This document shows, in pieces, positions 10,741-21,114 of a DNA stretch of 64,000 bases (the stretch's first letter is position 1; each line of letters begins with the position of its first letter). Position numbers and translations under genes: made by a program. The notes beneath the pieces are model-generated. The model searched no databases. It was not told the origin of the DNA and worked only from the letters and a program-made list of their open reading frames with translations. Source of the stretch: Gemmatimonadota bacterium (lineage in GTDB: Bacteria > Gemmatimonadota > Gemmatimonadetes > Longimicrobiales > Gaopeijiaceae); NCBI GenBank assembly GCA_022823225.1, contig JAJDXM010000026.1, positions 1 through 64,000 of the forward strand, written 5' to 3'.

Positions 10741-11259
10741 ATGGAGTCCATCACACGAATGAAGATAATGGCGACTACAAGTGACAGGTCCCCGCCGCAT
10801 GCGGCGCCCGTGGCAATTGCCGCGCTCGCGCTCCTCATGGTCCTGACGGCCTGCGGCGGCGACTCGGCCGGCTCGTCCGGAGCTGCAAGCGAGGCCTCCA
10901 CGGAAGAGGTTGCCGAAGCCGCGCCCGTGGAGTTCACCGTCGACCTGGCGCAGTTGCCCGAAGGCGTCACGGTGGAGATGGTCATGGAAGGCCGGGAACT
11001 CTTCAACGGCGGCGGAATCTGCTACACCTGCCACACCGTGGCGGCGACCGGTGGCCCGCTCGCCCCCGACCTGACCGACGACGTCTGGCTGAACGTGGAC
11101 GGCGAGTACGAATCGATCATCGAGTTGATCAAGACCGGCGTGGCCCAGCCGGTGGAGCACGCGGGCGCCATGCTCCCGCGCGCCGGCATGCCGCTGACCG
11201 ACGAACAGGTGGAAAAGCTCGCCGCATACAGCTACATGCTCAGCCGGACTTCGGGCTAA
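10741..11259 (+). CDS. Mono-heme c-type cytochrome lipoprotein
   Basis: A 172-residue exported cytochrome. A signal peptide ends at the lipobox LTACGG, followed by a Ser/Ala/Glu-rich linker and a class I cytochrome c domain with heme site CYTCH and a distal methionine probably in GAMLPRAGMP. The protein is probably attached to the periplasmic face of the inner membrane or to the outer membrane and shuttles electrons. The start is uncertain: ATG at 10741 has a distant AGGAA, while ATGs at 10759 and 10768 are alternatives. The 3' end overlaps the convergent radical SAM gene by 20 bp. Confidence 0.85.
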   Translation: MESITRMKIMATTSDRSPPHAAPVAIAALALLMVLTACGGDSAGSSGAASEASTEEVAEAAPVEFTVDLAQLPEGVTVEMVMEGRELFNGGGICYTCHTVAATGGPLAPDLTDDVWLNVDGEYESIIELIKTGVAQPVEHAGAMLPRAGMPLTDEQVEKLAAYSYMLSRTSG

Positions 11260-12331
11260 CTCTGTCCACGGACTGGAACAGATCGCCCTGCAACCCTCCG
11301 CCGCGTCGAAACGCCTCGGTTGAGAGCGGCTCAGGCCGCCGGTCCAGCCCGACCTTCCGCGCACACGCCCGGAACAGCGCCGCGATCTGGGCGGCGTACT
11401 CCCCTTCGCCCCGAAAGCGGCCGTGGAATGACGGGTCGTTGAGCCGGCCGCCGCGTGCCTCCCGGATCCGCGCGAGGACCTTCTCCTTGCGGTCGGGGAA
11501 GTGCACCTCCAGCCAGTTGACGAAATGGTCGGCCACCGGCCCCGGCAGCCGCAGAAGCATGAAAGAGGCGTGGCGCGCACCCGCGTCGGCGGCGGCGTTG
11601 AGGATCGCGGGGATCTCCTCGTCGTTCAGCGCGGGGATCACCGGCGCAACGAACACGCCGACCGGAACCCCCGCCTCGGACAGCCTCCGCACCGGGTCCA
11701 GGCGCCGGGCCGGAATGGAAGTTCGCGGCTCCATCACGCGGCGCAGTCCGTTGCGGAGCGTGGTCACCGAGACGGTGACGTGCGCGCACCCGTGGACGGC
11801 CATCTCGCGCAGGATGTCGATGTCCCGGGTGACGAGGTGGTTCTTGGTGACGATCGTGACCGGATTCATGAAGTCGCGCAGCACTCCGAGGCAGCGGCGC
11901 GTGATCTCCAGGCGGCGCTCGATGGGCTGGTAGGCGTCGGTGACCCCCGAGATGGCCAGCACCCTCGGCTCCCACGAGGGTCTCGAGAGCGCCGCCCTCA
12001 GCAGTTCCGGCGCGCGCCGCTTCACCAGGATCCTGCGCTCGAAGTCCAGCCCGGAGGAGAAACCCAGGTATTCGTGAGTGGGACGGGCGTAGCAATAGAC
12101 GCAGCCATGCTCGCAGCCGCGGTACGGGTTCAGCGAGGCATCGAAGCCGAGGTCCGGACTCCGGTTCTTCGCCACGATCGAACGGCTGGCGTCCGCAATG
12201 AACTCGGTCCGGGGCTTTTCGTCGCCCCGGTGGCCCGGTTCCATTTCGACGCTGACCGTTTCGAAACGGTTCGGAGGGTCGTAAGGTACTCCACGGCCCT
12301 TCAGCGGGTCGTGCAAGGGAAGGCTGCGCAT
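11240..12331 (-). CDS. Radical SAM protein, PA0069/SPL-like family
   Basis: A 363-residue radical SAM protein. The 4Fe-4S cluster site is CEHGCVYCYAR (CxxxCxYC with the typical aromatic), preceded by SLNPYRGCEHG, which is diagnostic of the PA0069-like group distantly related to spore photoproduct lyase. Other family features are SGVTDAYQPIERR and VTIVTKNHLVTRDIDIL. The biochemical function of this family is not established, so none is assigned. It overlaps the convergent cytochrome gene by 20 bp and is divergent from sufE with about 50 nt between the start codons. Confidence 0.88.
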   Translation of the reverse strand: MRSLPLHDPLKGRGVPYDPPNRFETVSVEMEPGHRGDEKPRTEFIADASRSIVAKNRSPDLGFDASLNPYRGCEHGCVYCYARPTHEYLGFSSGLDFERRILVKRRAPELLRAALSRPSWEPRVLAISGVTDAYQPIERRLEITRRCLGVLRDFMNPVTIVTKNHLVTRDIDILREMAVHGCAHVTVSVTTLRNGLRRVMEPRTSIPARRLDPVRRLSEAGVPVGVFVAPVIPALNDEEIPAILNAAADAGARHASFMLLRLPGPVADHFVNWLEVHFPDRKEKVLARIREARGGRLNDPSFHGRFRGEGEYAAQIAALFRACARKVGLDRRPEPLSTEAFRRGGGLQGDLFQSVDRVSPKSG

Positions 12332-12381: not shown

Positions 12382-12792
12382 GTGACGATCGAACAGCTGG
12401 AAAAGAGGCTCAACGCGCTGGCGGACCGGACGCTCCGCTACCACTACATCATTCAGCTCGGCCGGCGCCTGCCGCCCATGGATCCCGCGCTGAAGACCGA
12501 GGAGACGCAGGTCCGCGGCTGCATGAGCCCCGCCTGGCTGGCCGGATGGCTGGAAGACGGGGAACCTCCCACGCTCCGCTTCGTGGGCGACTCGGAGTCC
12601 ATCATCGTGAAGGGACTCTTCGCGATTCTCGCCGAGGTCTACAACGGTCAGTCGCCCGACAAGGCGCTGGCGGTGGACCTGTCGGACATCTTCGAGCGGC
12701 TGAAACTGGGGGAGGCGCTCAGCCCGAACCGTCGCAACGGCTTCTACTCGATGGTGGAGAAAATCCGGCGCGTAGCGGCTTCGCTGGCGTAG
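12382..12792 (+). CDS. sufE: SufE-family cysteine desulfurase activator
   Basis: A 136-residue protein of normal SufE length. It accepts sulfur from a SufS-type cysteine desulfurase and passes it to Fe-S cluster assembly. The acceptor cysteine is Cys47 in TQVRGCMSPAWL, which corresponds to the V-x-G-C-x-S-x-V-W-L motif of the family. The C-terminal half matches the family, with an LSPNRRNGFYSMVEKIR-like segment. The GTG start at 12382 follows an AAGAGGA sequence. No sufS or sufBCD genes are present nearby, so it acts with genes encoded elsewhere. Confidence 0.9.
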   Translation: MTIEQLEKRLNALADRTLRYHYIIQLGRRLPPMDPALKTEETQVRGCMSPAWLAGWLEDGEPPTLRFVGDSESIIVKGLFAILAEVYNGQSPDKALAVDLSDIFERLKLGEALSPNRRNGFYSMVEKIRRVAASLA

Positions 12793-13310: not shown

Positions 13311-14156
13311 TCAACGGGCATCGCTGTCCAGTGTGCCGCTGGCGCTGCCGTCCCTGTAGAGGAGAACGAAGAGACTGTCGCCGTAATCATCCTCGACGGC
13401 CAGGACCGAGAGCCGGCTGTTTCCGGCGATCAGCGAAATGTGACCGTCGCGACGCGGCTCCGACTCGTCGCCCGTGGCCCTGTTGGTGGTAAAGGAGGTG
13501 ACACCGAGCAGGTCGACCCCCTCGTCGTCGTACCACTCGAGCACCTCGGTCGCGCCTGCATCGGCGATGAACACCGCGCCCCCGAGCACGAAGTCCTCCA
13601 GATCGAAGTGGAAGGCCGCGTCACGCCGGGCACCGGGGAAGATCCTGGCCCATTCGGGCAGTCCGTCGTCCGCACCGGCCACCTCGCCGGCCTCCCTACC
13701 CACGTCCGCGAAACGGATCTCGCCGCGCTCCATCCGGTCCAGAGTCTCCGCAACCGAGACGAAGTCCATTTCCAGCCGCGGCGTCCCTCCCGGCAGATCG
13801 ATCCGGAACGCCACGCCGGAACCCTCCTCGCCCGCCGCGACGCCGATGCCGTCCTCCATCGCCACCATCGCGTTCAGAACTGCGACGACGGCCGTGCTCA
13901 GGTCCGATCTGATTGCACCGGCTGTCGTGACCCTCGCCACCTCCATCTCGGCTTCCACCATCTCGCCGACCTCTCCCACCACCTCCATGATCTCCGGGAA
14001 TTCTTCCGCGATCCTGCCGGCGGCCCAGATTCCGACCCCGATCAGCGCCAGCACCATTGTTACGACCACGCCGCCGCCAATTAGCAGCACCTTCGCCAAA
14101 GTGGACATGCCCTTGCGCTCAGGCGCACCCTGTTGATCGGAACCGTCCGGCATCAT
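13311..14156 (-). CDS. Single-pass membrane protein with C-terminal YPGA/WY domain
   Basis: A 281-residue protein. After a polar N-terminus (about 20 residues) there is one membrane helix, about 22-44 (VLLIGGGVVVTMVLALIGVG). An acidic, Glu/Val-rich helical segment follows. The last 110 residues match the C-terminal domain of the lipoprotein at 15837-16658: LPEWARIFPGA, a GGAVFIADAG-like strand and EVLEWYDDEG. This pattern recalls a widespread lipoprotein module of the form LP-x-PxPxGA ... GxxxF ... WYxxxL. The function is unknown. The start is one of two adjacent ATGs (14156 or 14153) behind AAGGAGAG. Confidence 0.6.
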   Translation of the reverse strand: MMPDGSDQQGAPERKGMSTLAKVLLIGGGVVVTMVLALIGVGIWAAGRIAEEFPEIMEVVGEVGEMVEAEMEVARVTTAGAIRSDLSTAVVAVLNAMVAMEDGIGVAAGEEGSGVAFRIDLPGGTPRLEMDFVSVAETLDRMERGEIRFADVGREAGEVAGADDGLPEWARIFPGARRDAAFHFDLEDFVLGGAVFIADAGATEVLEWYDDEGVDLLGVTSFTTNRATGDESEPRRDGHISLIAGNSRLSVLAVEDDYGDSLFVLLYRDGSASGTLDSDAR

Positions 14157-14231
14157 TCTCTCCTTTTCGCACTTGTGCGTTCCGGAGCCGCGATGATAGA
14201 TGCGCGGCACGCACCTGGCAAGCGGCCGAGG

Positions 14232-14813
14232 CTATCGTCTGCCCCATTCATCGATGAAGGTTTCGCTCTCCACCCCGAGACCGTCGGCGACCCGGGTGAT
14301 GTAGTTGAAGAAGGCGGCCACCTGCGTCGCGTCGTGGATGGCGCGGTCGTCCAGACCGGCTCTGCGAAGCGCCTCGAGGTCCCGGGGCTTCATCTCCTCT
14401 TCCTTACGCGTCAGCTTGACGGAATGTTCGCAGATCGCCCTGTCCGAGGGCGAAAGCGCCGCCTTCCGCCAGTCGGCGACGACCTGGTGGACGAAGGCGT
14501 CGCCGGCCTCCTCGTCCATCCCGGCTTTCCTGACCTCTTCCCGGAGGTCGTGCGCGTGCGCCCGGGTTCAGTAGAAGCAGTCCAGTTCGGCCGATACGAC
14601 CGTGGCGATCAACTCCCGCTGCACCCGCGACAGCGGCGAGGGCCCGAACATGATGGCGATGTACTGTTCCATCGTGGCCTTGAGGACCGGCGCGTTGAGG
14701 CTCATCACCTGAACGATGTTCCACACGCGGCCCGAGCGCTTCACCGAGGCCTCAAGTTCACGGCGCAGGAGCCCTGTCGACTTCTCAAGCGGTATCTCGC
14801 TGATCCAGGCCAC
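14232..14813 (-). CDS. AhpD-like peroxidase-related selenoprotein (Sec82, CxxU)
   Basis: A 193-residue protein of the carboxymuconolactone decarboxylase/AhpD superfamily (peroxidase-related group), interrupted in frame by one TGA at 14568-14570. The frame is open on both sides and the two halves join into a family-length protein. The TGA replaces the second cysteine of the redox motif: residues 79-86 read C-F-Y-U-T-R-A-H, matching the family CxxCxxxH. A hairpin fitting bacterial SECIS rules lies just after it (14532-14549). The likely role is reduction of peroxides or another thiol-dependent redox reaction in the cytoplasm. GTG at 14813 is the best start (GAGGAG 8 nt upstream). It lies 41 nt after plsC on the same strand. 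A second UGA selenoprotein at 36049 supports selenocysteine use. Confidence 0.82.
14532..14549 (-). promoter_or_regulatory. Candidate bacterial SECIS hairpin of the AhpD-like gene
   Basis: In the mRNA a perfect 6-bp stem GACCUC/GAGGUC encloses the loop CGGGAA. The loop begins 24 nt after the UGA and has a G within its first two bases. Those features fit published rules for bacterial SECIS elements (short distance from UGA, G early in the apical loop). The hairpin would be read by SelB to insert selenocysteine. Confidence 0.6.
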
Positions 14814-14854
14814 TACTCGCTCCTCTGCGTGATGAAATCCGGCACGGCCTTCCC

Positions 14855-15664
14855 TCACCCTGCCACGGGTTCGAAATCTTGCAGCATTGCCGTGCGGAGC
14901 GCGACTGCCAGTGCCTTCCGGTCCCGCGACCGTAGCGGCGCATCCCCGAAGCGCACCGTGCATTCGATCCGCCTGAGGGCCAGGAGCCCGGCGCAGTGCC
15001 TGGGAAACGGCACGTCGTTCCACCAGCAGACCCGGTCACGGGCGGATGGCGACCCCTTGGGCGTGCGGTACGACACGGTCAGCCGGTGCACCGGGGATTC
15101 CCTCTTCGCGGCGGTCGCCAGAAGGGACGGCTTGAAGGGCAGCATCGAGGAGCCGTCGCTGGTGGTCGCTTCGGGGAAGAGCACCACGCCGTCGCCGCGC
15201 CCGAGCGCACGCTCGATCCCGGCCAGCGCGCCGACCACGTCCCGCCGCTTCGAGCGGTCGATGTAGACGGTGCCGCCGATCGCCGACGCAAGGCCCCAGT
15301 AGGGCCAGCGTCGCAGTCCCGCCCCGGCCACGAACACGACCGGCAGCAGCGACGACAGCACCAGGATGTCCAGGTAGCTCACGTGATTGGATACGATCAG
15401 GGCGCCGTTGGGCGGGGGCGTCCCCAGCGCGCAGACCCGGACCCCGATCACGCGGACGGCAACGCATCCCCACAGCCGCGAGTACCACCTCCGGATCCGT
15501 GCCCTGCCGGCCGGGCCGGAGCGCCGCCGCAGAAGTGAGGGCAGCCACGAGATCCCGAGCAGCATGATGAGCAGCGTGGTCCAGACACCGATGGCCGCCG
15601 CCTTGAGAGCCGCGCGAATCCGGTCGCGGGCTCCGAGGTGCAGCGGGGAAGGGGTTCCGGTCAC
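14855..15664 (-). CDS. 1-acyl-sn-glycerol-3-phosphate acyltransferase (PlsC-like)
   Basis: A 269-residue membrane-associated acyltransferase of the lysophosphatidate acyltransferase family. The catalytic NHxxxxD motif is NHVSYLD, and the substrate-binding block is FPEATTSDG, a variant of FPEGTRS in which Gly is Ala and Arg is Thr. An N-terminal hydrophobic segment (about 15-40, AAIGVWTTLLIMLLGISWLP) anchors it. The reaction expected is acylation of lysophosphatidate or a related lysolipid. The GTG at 15664 is a plausible start but has no clear ribosome-binding site; the reading frame continues further upstream. It leads the run plsC, AhpD-like selenoprotein, membrane protein. Confidence 0.82.
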   Translation of the reverse strand: MTGTPSPLHLGARDRIRAALKAAAIGVWTTLLIMLLGISWLPSLLRRRSGPAGRARIRRWYSRLWGCVAVRVIGVRVCALGTPPPNGALIVSNHVSYLDILVLSSLLPVVFVAGAGLRRWPYWGLASAIGGTVYIDRSKRRDVVGALAGIERALGRGDGVVLFPEATTSDGSSMLPFKPSLLATAAKRESPVHRLTVSYRTPKGSPSARDRVCWWNDVPFPRHCAGLLALRRIECTVRFGDAPLRSRDRKALAVALRTAMLQDFEPVAG

Positions 15665-15836
15665 TGTTTGGCGCGGGCTCCGGGGGTGGGCGATTTCCGG
15701 GCTGGCGATCGCCGGGCAGGTCAATGTATCCGGGGCGCGGCCGGCGGTGAAACCCCGGCGCCCGGAATCCGTAGGGCAGGTGCGGGCGGCGGCTTCGCCG
15801 CGTCGAAACCGGTTTACCAAAGAACGGAGAAGAAAG

Positions 15837-18001: not shown

Positions 18002-19480
18002 TCAGCGCCGCTCGGCCGCGAAGAGACGGTCCAGCTCGGCTGATTCATGGCTCGGCGTGAACCTTGCGATCAGGTAGTACGCCGCAAAGGAAAGCGCCAC
18101 CGCGGGGAAGACCTTGTGCATCGCGGCGCCCCAGGGGAGAAAGTCCCATGCCAGCAGGACCAGCAGCCCGGTCGCGAATGACGCGATGGTCGCGGTGCCG
18201 TTGCCCTTGCGCCAGTGCAGCCCCATCAGCAGCGCGGGACCGAAGCAGGCCCCGTAGATCGCGCCGGAGAGCGCCGTCAGCACCACGATCCGGTCGGGAG
18301 GGTTGAGCGCAATGATGGCGGTGATCAGTGCAAACAGCGCCACATACAGCCGCGTCGCGGCGAGGACGGACCGTTCGGTCCCGGACGGGCGCAGCATCCC
18401 GACGATGTCGCGCTGGGCCGTCGAGGCCATGACGAGGAGCACGCTGTCCAGCGACGACATCGCCGCCGCCACCATGGCCAGCAGCAGAAAGGCGCTGACG
18501 CCCGCCGGGAACACCCCGGGCGTGGTGAGCAGGTTGGGCACGACCATGTCCGTATCGGCCAGACCCCCCGGCAGGATGTTGCGCGCGTAGAGTCCCACCG
18601 GGATCAGCAGACTGTAGACCAGCACGAACGCGAGCGTCGAGACCCACACGCCCCGGCGGATCGCGGCGCGGCTCTCGAGCGCGTAGAAGCGCGACAGCTG
18701 ACGCGGCTCCACGGCGAACTTGACGGTGCCTGCGAAGACGACCCCGAGCGCGACCGCCACGCTGACGCCGCCTCCCCAGCGCAGCAGCGGCTCGGTCGAG
18801 GGGTCGTTCGCCAGCGCGGCGGCCGAGTCCAGTCCCCCGGCGGCCGCCACCACGCCCCGGAAGAGGAGGATCGCGGCGACGACCATCACCAGCCCCTGCA
18901 CGGCATCGGTCTTCACCACGGAGATGAAGCCGCCGGCGACGGTGTAGAGCATCACGATGAAGAACACGATGATGATCGCCGCGCGGTAGGGGATGTCCAG
19001 GAAAACCTCCAGGAGGTTGCCGATCCCCTTGAAGACCGCGGTCATGTAGAAGAACGAGGCGAAGATCACGATCACCGCGGCCAGCATCCGCGCGGCCGGG
19101 CTGCCGAAGCGGAACCCGATGAAGTCGGGGATCGTGAGCGACCCCAGCGACTCGGTGAAGGTGCGCAGGCGGGGCGCCACCCCGATCCACGCAAAGAGCG
19201 ACAGCGCAACCACGAACGGGACCAGAAGGAACCAGGTCACCCCCCAGTCGTAGGCCTGCCCGGAGAACCCGACGAACGAGTTGGTGCTGGAGTAGGTGGC
19301 GAAGAAGGAGAGTCCGATCGCGATAGGGCCCATCGCGCGCCCCCCGACGAAGTAGTCGGCCACGCCCTTCGTCCTGCGGTTTCCGGTCCACGCGTGGTAC
19401 GCGAGCAGGCAGGTGTACAGGAGGAGGAGAAGGTGGACGATCCAGTAGGTGCGCAGGTTGTCGAGGATTGCCTGTATCAA
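18002..19480 (-). CDS. Sodium:solute symporter (SSS family)
   Basis: A 492-residue membrane transporter with about 13 helices. Family signatures include ADYFVGGRAMGPIAIGLSFFATY at the end of helix 1 (a cation-binding region), FIGFRFGSP and YTVAGGFISVVKTDAVQG. It imports an organic solute with Na+. The substrate cannot be read from sequence. The TTG start overlaps the stop of the upstream acyl-CoA ligase (TTGA), suggesting that the substrate could be the acid activated by that ligase; this is inference. Confidence 0.88.
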   Translation of the reverse strand: MIQAILDNLRTYWIVHLLLLLYTCLLAYHAWTGNRRTKGVADYFVGGRAMGPIAIGLSFFATYSSTNSFVGFSGQAYDWGVTWFLLVPFVVALSLFAWIGVAPRLRTFTESLGSLTIPDFIGFRFGSPAARMLAAVIVIFASFFYMTAVFKGIGNLLEVFLDIPYRAAIIIVFFIVMLYTVAGGFISVVKTDAVQGLVMVVAAILLFRGVVAAAGGLDSAAALANDPSTEPLLRWGGGVSVAVALGVVFAGTVKFAVEPRQLSRFYALESRAAIRRGVWVSTLAFVLVYSLLIPVGLYARNILPGGLADTDMVVPNLLTTPGVFPAGVSAFLLLAMVAAAMSSLDSVLLVMASTAQRDIVGMLRPSGTERSVLAATRLYVALFALITAIIALNPPDRIVVLTALSGAIYGACFGPALLMGLHWRKGNGTATIASFATGLLVLLAWDFLPWGAAMHKVFPAVALSFAAYYLIARFTPSHESAELDRLFAAERR

Positions 19481-21114
19481 CGGTGGTCTCGCGGGTGGGG
19501 ATCCGAACGGGCCGCGGGCCCCACCAACATGTGGCGCAGGGTCGCTTTCTGCACCTTCCCCATCGCGTTGCGCGGGAGCTCGGGCACCGCCGCGAATTCA
19601 TGGGGAACCTTGTAGGGGGCCAGCCGCTCCTTGCCCCAGGCGCGCAGCTCCGCGGTGCCCGGGGCGGTCGCGGTCCGGCCTCTGCCGGTGTCTTCCGGAA
19701 CCCACGCCGCGCGCAGCTGCGCTCCCCATTCGCGGTGATCCACGCCCACGACCGCGATGTCCCGGACCGCGGGGTGGGTGCGGTACAGCGCCTCCACCTC
19801 CAGCGCCGACACCTTGTGGCCCCCGGTCTTGACGATGTCGACGCTCCGGCGCCCCAGAATCCGGTAGTAGCCGTCCCGGGCTCGGCAGGCCTCGTCGCCG
19901 GTGCGGAACCAGCCGTCCCGAAAGGCGGCCGCTGTCTCCTCAGGGCGGCCCCAGTATCCCTGGAAGACCTGCGGCCCGCGGACCTCGATCTCGCCGGAGT
20001 CGCCGGTCGGCACGCCGGCTTCGTCGACGAGCCTCAACGTGACGCCGGGCAGAGGGAGGCCCACATGACCCGCTCGGCGCTCGCCGTCGAGCGGATTGGA
20101 AAGCGCCATGCCGATTTCGGTCATGCCGTACCGCTCGAGGAGGGTCTGGCCGGTGATTTCGCGCCACCGCTCGAGGGTCGGGGCGGGGAGCGCCGCCGAG
20201 CCCGAGACCATCAGGCGCAAGGCGGCGGCCCCGCGCGACCAGCGCTCCCGCGTCGCCGGAGCCGCATCTCTCCACGCGCGGATCAGGCGGGTGTAGACGG
20301 TGGGGACGGACATGAAAACCGTGATTTCGCCCGAAGCGAGCCGGTCCCAGGCGGGGGCCGGCGCGGACGGGCCGAACTCGACGGAGGCCCCGGACCAGAG
20401 CGCGCAGGCGAGCGCGTTGATCAGGCCGTGGATGTGGTGCAGCGGAAGGGTATGGAGGATGCGGTCGTGCGTTGTCCAGGCCCAGGCGCGGGTCAGCGCG
20501 GTGATCTGGGCCGTGATGTTCGCGTGCGTGGTGAGGACGCCCCTGGGCCGGCCGGTCGTGCCGCTGGTGTAGATGAGCAGGGCGGGGTCGGTGGGGTGGG
20601 GGAGGGGAGGGGTGGTGGCCGGTACGGTGTGGTGGTGCGCGGCGTCCGGGGCGAGGACCGTGGCCGACTGCGCGATTGCGGCCGCCGCGAGGGGGTGGGC
20701 GGGGTCGGCCACGACGACGCGCGGGCGGGCGTCCGCGATGACGTGTTCCAGTTCGGGGAGGGGGTGCGAGACCGCGAGGGGGACGGCGACGCCCCGGGCG
20801 AGCCAGATGCCCAGCTGGACGGCCACGTTGCGGGGGGTGGGGGGGATGAGGTAGGCGACCCGGTCGCCGGGCGAAAAGGTGTCCATGGTCAGAAGGATGT
20901 TCCGCCATGCCGACGCTTCTGCCAGCAGCTGCGCATAGCTGCGGCGACCGTGCCCGCCGCTCAGCGCGATTTGGTCCGCGCGGGCGGGCTGTGCGATGCG
21001 GGCCAGGAGGCTGTCGCCGGTGCCGTTGATGTTACGTGGCTCCTTGCCGGGGCAAACAGATCCCCGCGCACAAAGCGGGGTTCGGCGGGGAGGAAGGTGT
21101 GGCCGGTCCTCCAT
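19477..21114 (-). CDS. Acyl-CoA synthetase, malonyl-CoA synthetase-like (MatB/ACSF3)
   Basis: An AMP-forming ligase of about 545 residues. The phosphate-binding loop is YTSGTTGRPRG, and the A5 motif region ERYGMTEIGMALSNPLDGE followed by RRAGHVGLPLPGV closely resembles malonyl-CoA synthetases of the MatB/ACSF3 type. The C-terminal hinge (GDEACRARDGYYRILGR) and the catalytic lysine region PRNAMGKVQK are intact. The reaction would be malonate (or a related short acid) + ATP + CoA to acyl-CoA. The start is uncertain: ATG at 21114 is used, but an AAGGAG lies further in, near 21040, with no standard start codon behind it. The gene is coupled to the Na+ symporter. Confidence 0.78.
   Translation of the reverse strand: MEDRPHLPPRRTPLCARGSVCPGKEPRNINGTGDSLLARIAQPARADQIALSGGHGRRSYAQLLAEASAWRNILLTMDTFSPGDRVAYLIPPTPRNVAVQLGIWLARGVAVPLAVSHPLPELEHVIADARPRVVVADPAHPLAAAAIAQSATVLAPDAAHHHTVPATTPPLPHPTDPALLIYTSGTTGRPRGVLTTHANITAQITALTRAWAWTTHDRILHTLPLHHIHGLINALACALWSGASVEFGPSAPAPAWDRLASGEITVFMSVPTVYTRLIRAWRDAAPATRERWSRGAAALRLMVSGSAALPAPTLERWREITGQTLLERYGMTEIGMALSNPLDGERRAGHVGLPLPGVTLRLVDEAGVPTGDSGEIEVRGPQVFQGYWGRPEETAAAFRDGWFRTGDEACRARDGYYRILGRRSVDIVKTGGHKVSALEVEALYRTHPAVRDIAVVGVDHREWGAQLRAAWVPEDTGRGRTATAPGTAELRAWGKERLAPYKVPHEFAAVPELPRNAMGKVQKATLRHMLVGPAARSDPHPRDHR

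Follow-up and report, generated by a model that had tools for sequence, protein, structure and literature searches.

We asked whether a TGA codon that interrupts an otherwise intact gene in a Gemmatimonadota genome is decoded as selenocysteine (Sec), or whether it marks an inactivated gene, an error in the sequence or a codon that is read through by some other route. The gene lies in a 64,000-nucleotide stretch of contig JAJDXM010000026.1 (hereafter, the window), and the features considered here are listed in Table 1. The original prediction described, without giving a strand, a 193-codon gene with one in-frame TGA in the context C-F-Y-UGA-T-R-A-H and a GTG start preceded by GAGGAG. When the minus strand was translated with TGA as Sec (U), the product ran for 193 residues to a terminal stop and contained one U, residue 82, in the context ...AELDCFYUTRAHAHDLREEV..., precisely where the AhpD CxxC motif has its second Cys. 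This translation confirmed the description, as did the start region, because the relatives begin at the same codon, mostly with ATG. Reading the same interval on the plus strand gives no gene. At seven places in this GC-rich window, a long frame continues through a TGA that has a CxxU or UxxC motif near it. The bare pattern is thus not rare, and it is comparative evidence that lifts the present locus above chance.

Table 1. Positions of the selenoprotein gene candidate, its elements and two neighbouring genes within the window
Feature	Coordinates	Strand	Basis
Predicted AhpD-like (TIGR01926, peroxidase-related) selenoprotein gene	14232..14813	minus	GTG at 14813, stop codon 14234-14232; translation, TIGR01926, CMD
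In-frame TGA, codon 82, second position of CxxC, predicted to be read as selenocysteine	14568..14570	minus	TGA in same column in 44 loci and 59 near-relative sequences
GAGGAG, a probable ribosome binding site 6 nt upstream of the GTG	14820..14825	minus	sequence
Putative bacterial SECIS hairpin, 6-bp stem GACCUC/GAGGUC, 6-nt loop CGGGAA	14532..14549	minus	covariation, published constraints
plsC-like acyltransferase, immediately upstream of the selenoprotein gene	14855..15670 (start approximate)	minus	Pfam Acyltransferase, 75 bits
Acyl-CoA synthetase (AMP-binding)	19477..21114	minus	near the selenoprotein gene in 9/21 wider loci

The family assignment of the translated protein (P0002) is clear. 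Its score against the TIGR01926 profile was 122.1 bits, above the cut-off of 81.8 and covering model positions 12-174 of 178, and the Pfam CMD domain was recognized with 42.3 bits. Against NF041238 (AhpD_rel_CFYUT), the score was 71.2 bits for a cut-off of 175, with the match confined to the C-terminal half of the 357-residue model; the protein is therefore not a member of that family. Five relatives with solved structures (2pfx, 3c1l, 6k40, 2oyo and 2prr) were matched with E values from 5e-14 to 3e-21, and the Cxx-Cxxx-H site was aligned in these matches; the fold is already defined by such solved relatives. A search of PHROG gave no match.

We then compared the TGA codon among relatives in 98 related genomes and 395 genomes of the phylum. 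Every near-relative, defined as a match above about 195 bits that spans the site, contained exactly one internal stop, and this stop was a TGA; a few fragments without a stop begin beyond the site or close to it and are uninformative. When 44 loci were read singly, the TGA was always found at the codon of residue 82. Matches in the phylum genomes that lacked TGA at the site were all distant (about 110 bits or less), and the six distant homologues checked at this codon all carried TGC, which is the Cys that the original prediction had expected in homologues. A contig scan with the selenoprotein recovered one named relative (L071, from a Gemmatimonadota metagenome-assembled genome, 71% protein identity), a low yield that is probably due to the use of single-sequence patterns, which detect close relatives only, and to the spelling of Sec as Cys in the site-spanning pattern. 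One near-relative gene looks split (L037, G022:C1:140129-143596): the match to residues 1-42 lies about 1.3 kb upstream of that to residues 37-192, a separation that suggests an insertion within the gene.

These comparisons bear on two explanations in which the TGA has no function. A single in-frame stop in an otherwise intact gene resembles a recent nonsense mutation, by which a CxxC peroxidase would have been inactivated, but we consider this very improbable, because 59 distinct near-relative sequences, which share about 50-80% protein identity with the selenoprotein, have the TGA at this codon, because purifying selection acts on both parts of the gene (dN/dS 0.09-0.14 before the TGA and 0.26-0.34 after it, the latter higher yet clearly below 1), and because the RNA hairpin described below is also selected. 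Even less probable is a sequencing or assembly error that made TGA from TGC or TGT; the genome is a draft of 97 contigs, which leaves some room for such errors, but the TGA recurs in dozens of genomes of the phylum that were assembled separately, including the single-contig genomes G001, G022, G151 and G217. On the strength of these comparisons, both a pseudogene and a sequencing error, the latter named in the original prediction as an outcome that would overturn it, can be regarded as excluded in practice.

The genome contains the complete Sec machinery, so that all four genes the original prediction had proposed to look for (selA, selB, selC and selD) were found: a tRNA-Sec with the anticodon UCA (79.6 bits), SelB (306.9 bits), SelA (470 bits) and SelD (381 bits). 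The selD gene itself has one in-frame TGA (L068, G000:C52:13402-14319), and its product is probably also a selenoprotein. Among the 98 related genomes, tRNA-Sec was found in 43 of the 47 with the TGA gene, compared with 21 of the 51 without it (Fisher's test, P = 1.3e-7, uncorrected for kinship), and it was missing from 9 of the 10 genomes that have only a Cys (or stop-free) homologue. Two of the four genomes with the TGA gene that lacked tRNA-Sec have SelB above the cut-off; the other two, G029 and G032, showed neither above the cut-off and are drafts with a completeness of 81-82%.

A UGA codon can in general be leaky when the next base is A. This potential leakiness leaves some space for readthrough that does not involve Sec (with UGA read as Trp, or through near-cognate suppression) or for an 81-residue product that is functional by itself with readthrough being minor. 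We regard this as improbable, though somewhat less so than a pseudogene, since the relatives without UGA that were checked have Cys and never Trp, since the TGA gene co-occurs with tRNA-Sec and is followed by a hairpin that fits the SECIS model, and since the half of the protein after the TGA, including His86, is conserved.

According to a 2026 review, a bacterial SECIS has an apical loop of 3-9 nt, a stem of 4-16 bp, a G in the first two loop positions, a distance of 16-37 nt from the UGA to the loop and a folding energy at or below -7.5 kcal/mol (PMC13188914). The hairpin put forward in the original prediction, with 6 bp, a start 18 nt after the UGA and a G among the first two loop bases, was recovered exactly as described, with the G at loop position 2, and it lies within all of these ranges (6-nt loop, 6 bp, apical loop 24 nt after the UGA, -8.0 kcal/mol). 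Across the 59 near-relative sequences, the energy of the bare hairpin ranged from -6.0 to -8.1 kcal/mol with a median of -8.0, and some relatives thus miss the limit of -7.5. The review also states that a loop pattern N G [G/U] N N, in which the first and last N are paired, holds for most SECIS elements (PMC13188914); all of the loops contain CGG or CGU, and we see no evident closing N1-N2 pair. Compared with shuffled sequences, the stability of the hairpin is unremarkable (z = +0.45 for a 48-nt stretch and z = -1.5 for the bare hairpin). We accordingly dropped single-sequence folding energy, which is not informative for SECIS prediction in GC-rich genomes, and the case for a SECIS element rests on covariation and codon conservation.

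All 354 of the 354 possible stem pairs are formed across the 59 distinct near-relative sequences. The third base of the Asp89 codon and the first base of the codon of residue 94 covary, with GAC..GTY in 47 sequences, GAT..ATC in 12 and mixed combinations in none. On a protein tree built without the hairpin columns, this compensatory pair changed three times, and two or more of the changes fall on well-supported branches; because such events are few, a tree-corrected test has no power. Moreover, Leu90 is encoded by CTC and Glu93 by GAG in 59 of 59 sequences each, whereas the codons for conserved Leu and Glu residues elsewhere in these genes vary; synonymous freedom is thus strongly reduced in the hairpin codons. 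When the stems were slid by up to 9 nt, the best alternative register formed 121 of 180 pairs, compared with 180 of 180 for the actual register, and the six distant Cys homologues form just 3-5 of the 6 pairs at the hairpin positions. Taken with the conserved TGA and the Sec machinery, the covariation of this hairpin supports the CxxU selenoprotein reading of the original prediction. We are thus highly confident that the product would be a single-domain, thiol peroxidase-like enzyme of the AhpD/CMD fold, with selenocysteine inserted at UGA codon 82 through tRNA-Sec, SelB and the downstream SECIS.

The active site is consistent with such an enzyme. A proton relay has been described for Mycobacterium tuberculosis AhpD (Glu118, Cys130, His132, Cys133 and His137) and for PA0269 (Glu36, Cys48, Tyr50, Cys51 and His55) (PMC3141380). 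In our alignment (A1), Glu67, Cys79, Tyr81, Sec/Cys82 and His86 are invariant, and they share the spacing of both relay sites; this matching spacing and invariance place Sec82 at the second active-site Cys, equivalent to Cys133 of M. tuberculosis AhpD. In the mechanism that we propose, tRNA-Sec and SelB would insert Sec at the UGA in vivo under the guidance of the hairpin 18 nt downstream, within the coding sequence, and the five invariant residues would form the proton-relay site. The selenolate of Sec82 would reduce peroxide or another oxidant, a selenenylsulfide would then form between Sec82 and Cys79, and a cellular thiol system would presumably act as its reductant. From general knowledge of AhpD, we take Sec82 to be the peroxide-attacking residue and Cys79 the resolving residue.

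The same genome contains an AhpD-like paralogue on the minus strand (L047, G000:C1:21877-22332), in which the TGA occurs in CFYUINHHG. Outside the near-relative clade, 14 sequences (12 of the L047 type and two intermediate ones, L046 and L053) have a stem ACGGRG...CUCCGU that begins 10 nt past the UGA, and its pairs are formed in 83 of 84 cells. Although few in number, these sequences suggest that the SECIS register differs between the two subfamilies, the hairpin of the paralogue being 8 nt nearer the UGA. If this is the case, it would document the shift of a SECIS hairpin along the coding sequence between paralogues while the Sec codon stayed fixed. The broader proposal, that the near-relative clade is effectively Sec-obligate across Gemmatimonadota (no Cys version was seen) and that the paralogous subfamily, present in these genomes as well, carries its SECIS in a different register over overlapping codons, may hold, and we judge it evenly balanced.

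The original prediction also drew attention to the setting of the gene beside plsC as unusual. The plsC-like neighbour is real, and its best NCBIfam matches are lyso-ornithine lipid O-acyltransferases, which it matches below the cut-off; among 44 loci, only 8 have a plsC-like gene within 1.5 kb of the selenoprotein gene, so that it says little about function and we do not press it as a clue. In a comparison of wider loci, for which we ignored several clusters that are frames overlapping true genes on the other strand, the acyl-CoA synthetase showed a suggestive link to the selenoprotein gene, with variable distance and orientation. Given these neighbouring lipid genes, lipid hydroperoxides are a possible, weakly supported substrate. 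Elsewhere in the surroundings, a sodium:solute symporter adjoins the acyl-CoA synthetase (18002-21114, minus), and a PA0069-family radical SAM protein (11240-12331, minus, 458 bits) is divergent from a SufE-domain protein (12382-12792, plus). Downstream of the selenoprotein gene lies a hypothetical protein (13311-14210, minus) with no Pfam or NCBIfam match, relatives of which flank the gene on either side in several genomes.

Automatic annotation easily loses or splits such genes, and the present finding would correct an annotation of this kind. It also points to an abundance of Sec-dependent AhpD-like enzymes in Gemmatimonadota. Among the papers covered by a text search on Gemmatimonadota and selenocysteine, we found none on the subject. 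Furthermore, SECIS prediction for GC-rich genomes could be improved with the 59 sequences that have a covarying hairpin, together with the paralogues whose hairpin is shifted. The additions to what is known are modest, namely a clade of near-relatives for which only Sec forms were seen and a subfamily of paralogues in which the hairpin appears to be displaced.

As the original prediction noted, AhpD-like selenoproteins are known from metagenomic surveys. Those with CxxU date from 2005, and the proteins of the marine surveys resemble ours in having CxxU in an AhpD/CMD fold with a bacterial SECIS downstream (PMC1088965, PMC2398784). In those surveys, they were assigned to COG2128 and pfam02627 on the basis of metagenomic reads, and the likeness is drawn at the level of motif and fold, not of subfamily. 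The 2026 review lists both an 'AhpD-like protein, TIGR01926, CxxU' and an 'AhpD-related, NF041238, CxxU' among selenoprotein families (PMC13188914). Because the protein passes the TIGR01926 cut-off and this family is already in the review, the gene belongs to a known selenoprotein family, which it matches in protein family, CxxU motif and the single Sec, with no difference in principle. The subfamily described here is widespread in Gemmatimonadota and its SECIS is described by covariation; the protein given as an example in the review may or may not fall within it. NF041238, the 'alkylhydroperoxidase-related (seleno)protein' family, shares the CFYUT string and the AhpD domain, and differs in that the present selenoprotein falls below its cut-off. 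The five proteins of solved structure belong to the same family by sequence, and have Cys where the selenoprotein would have Sec.
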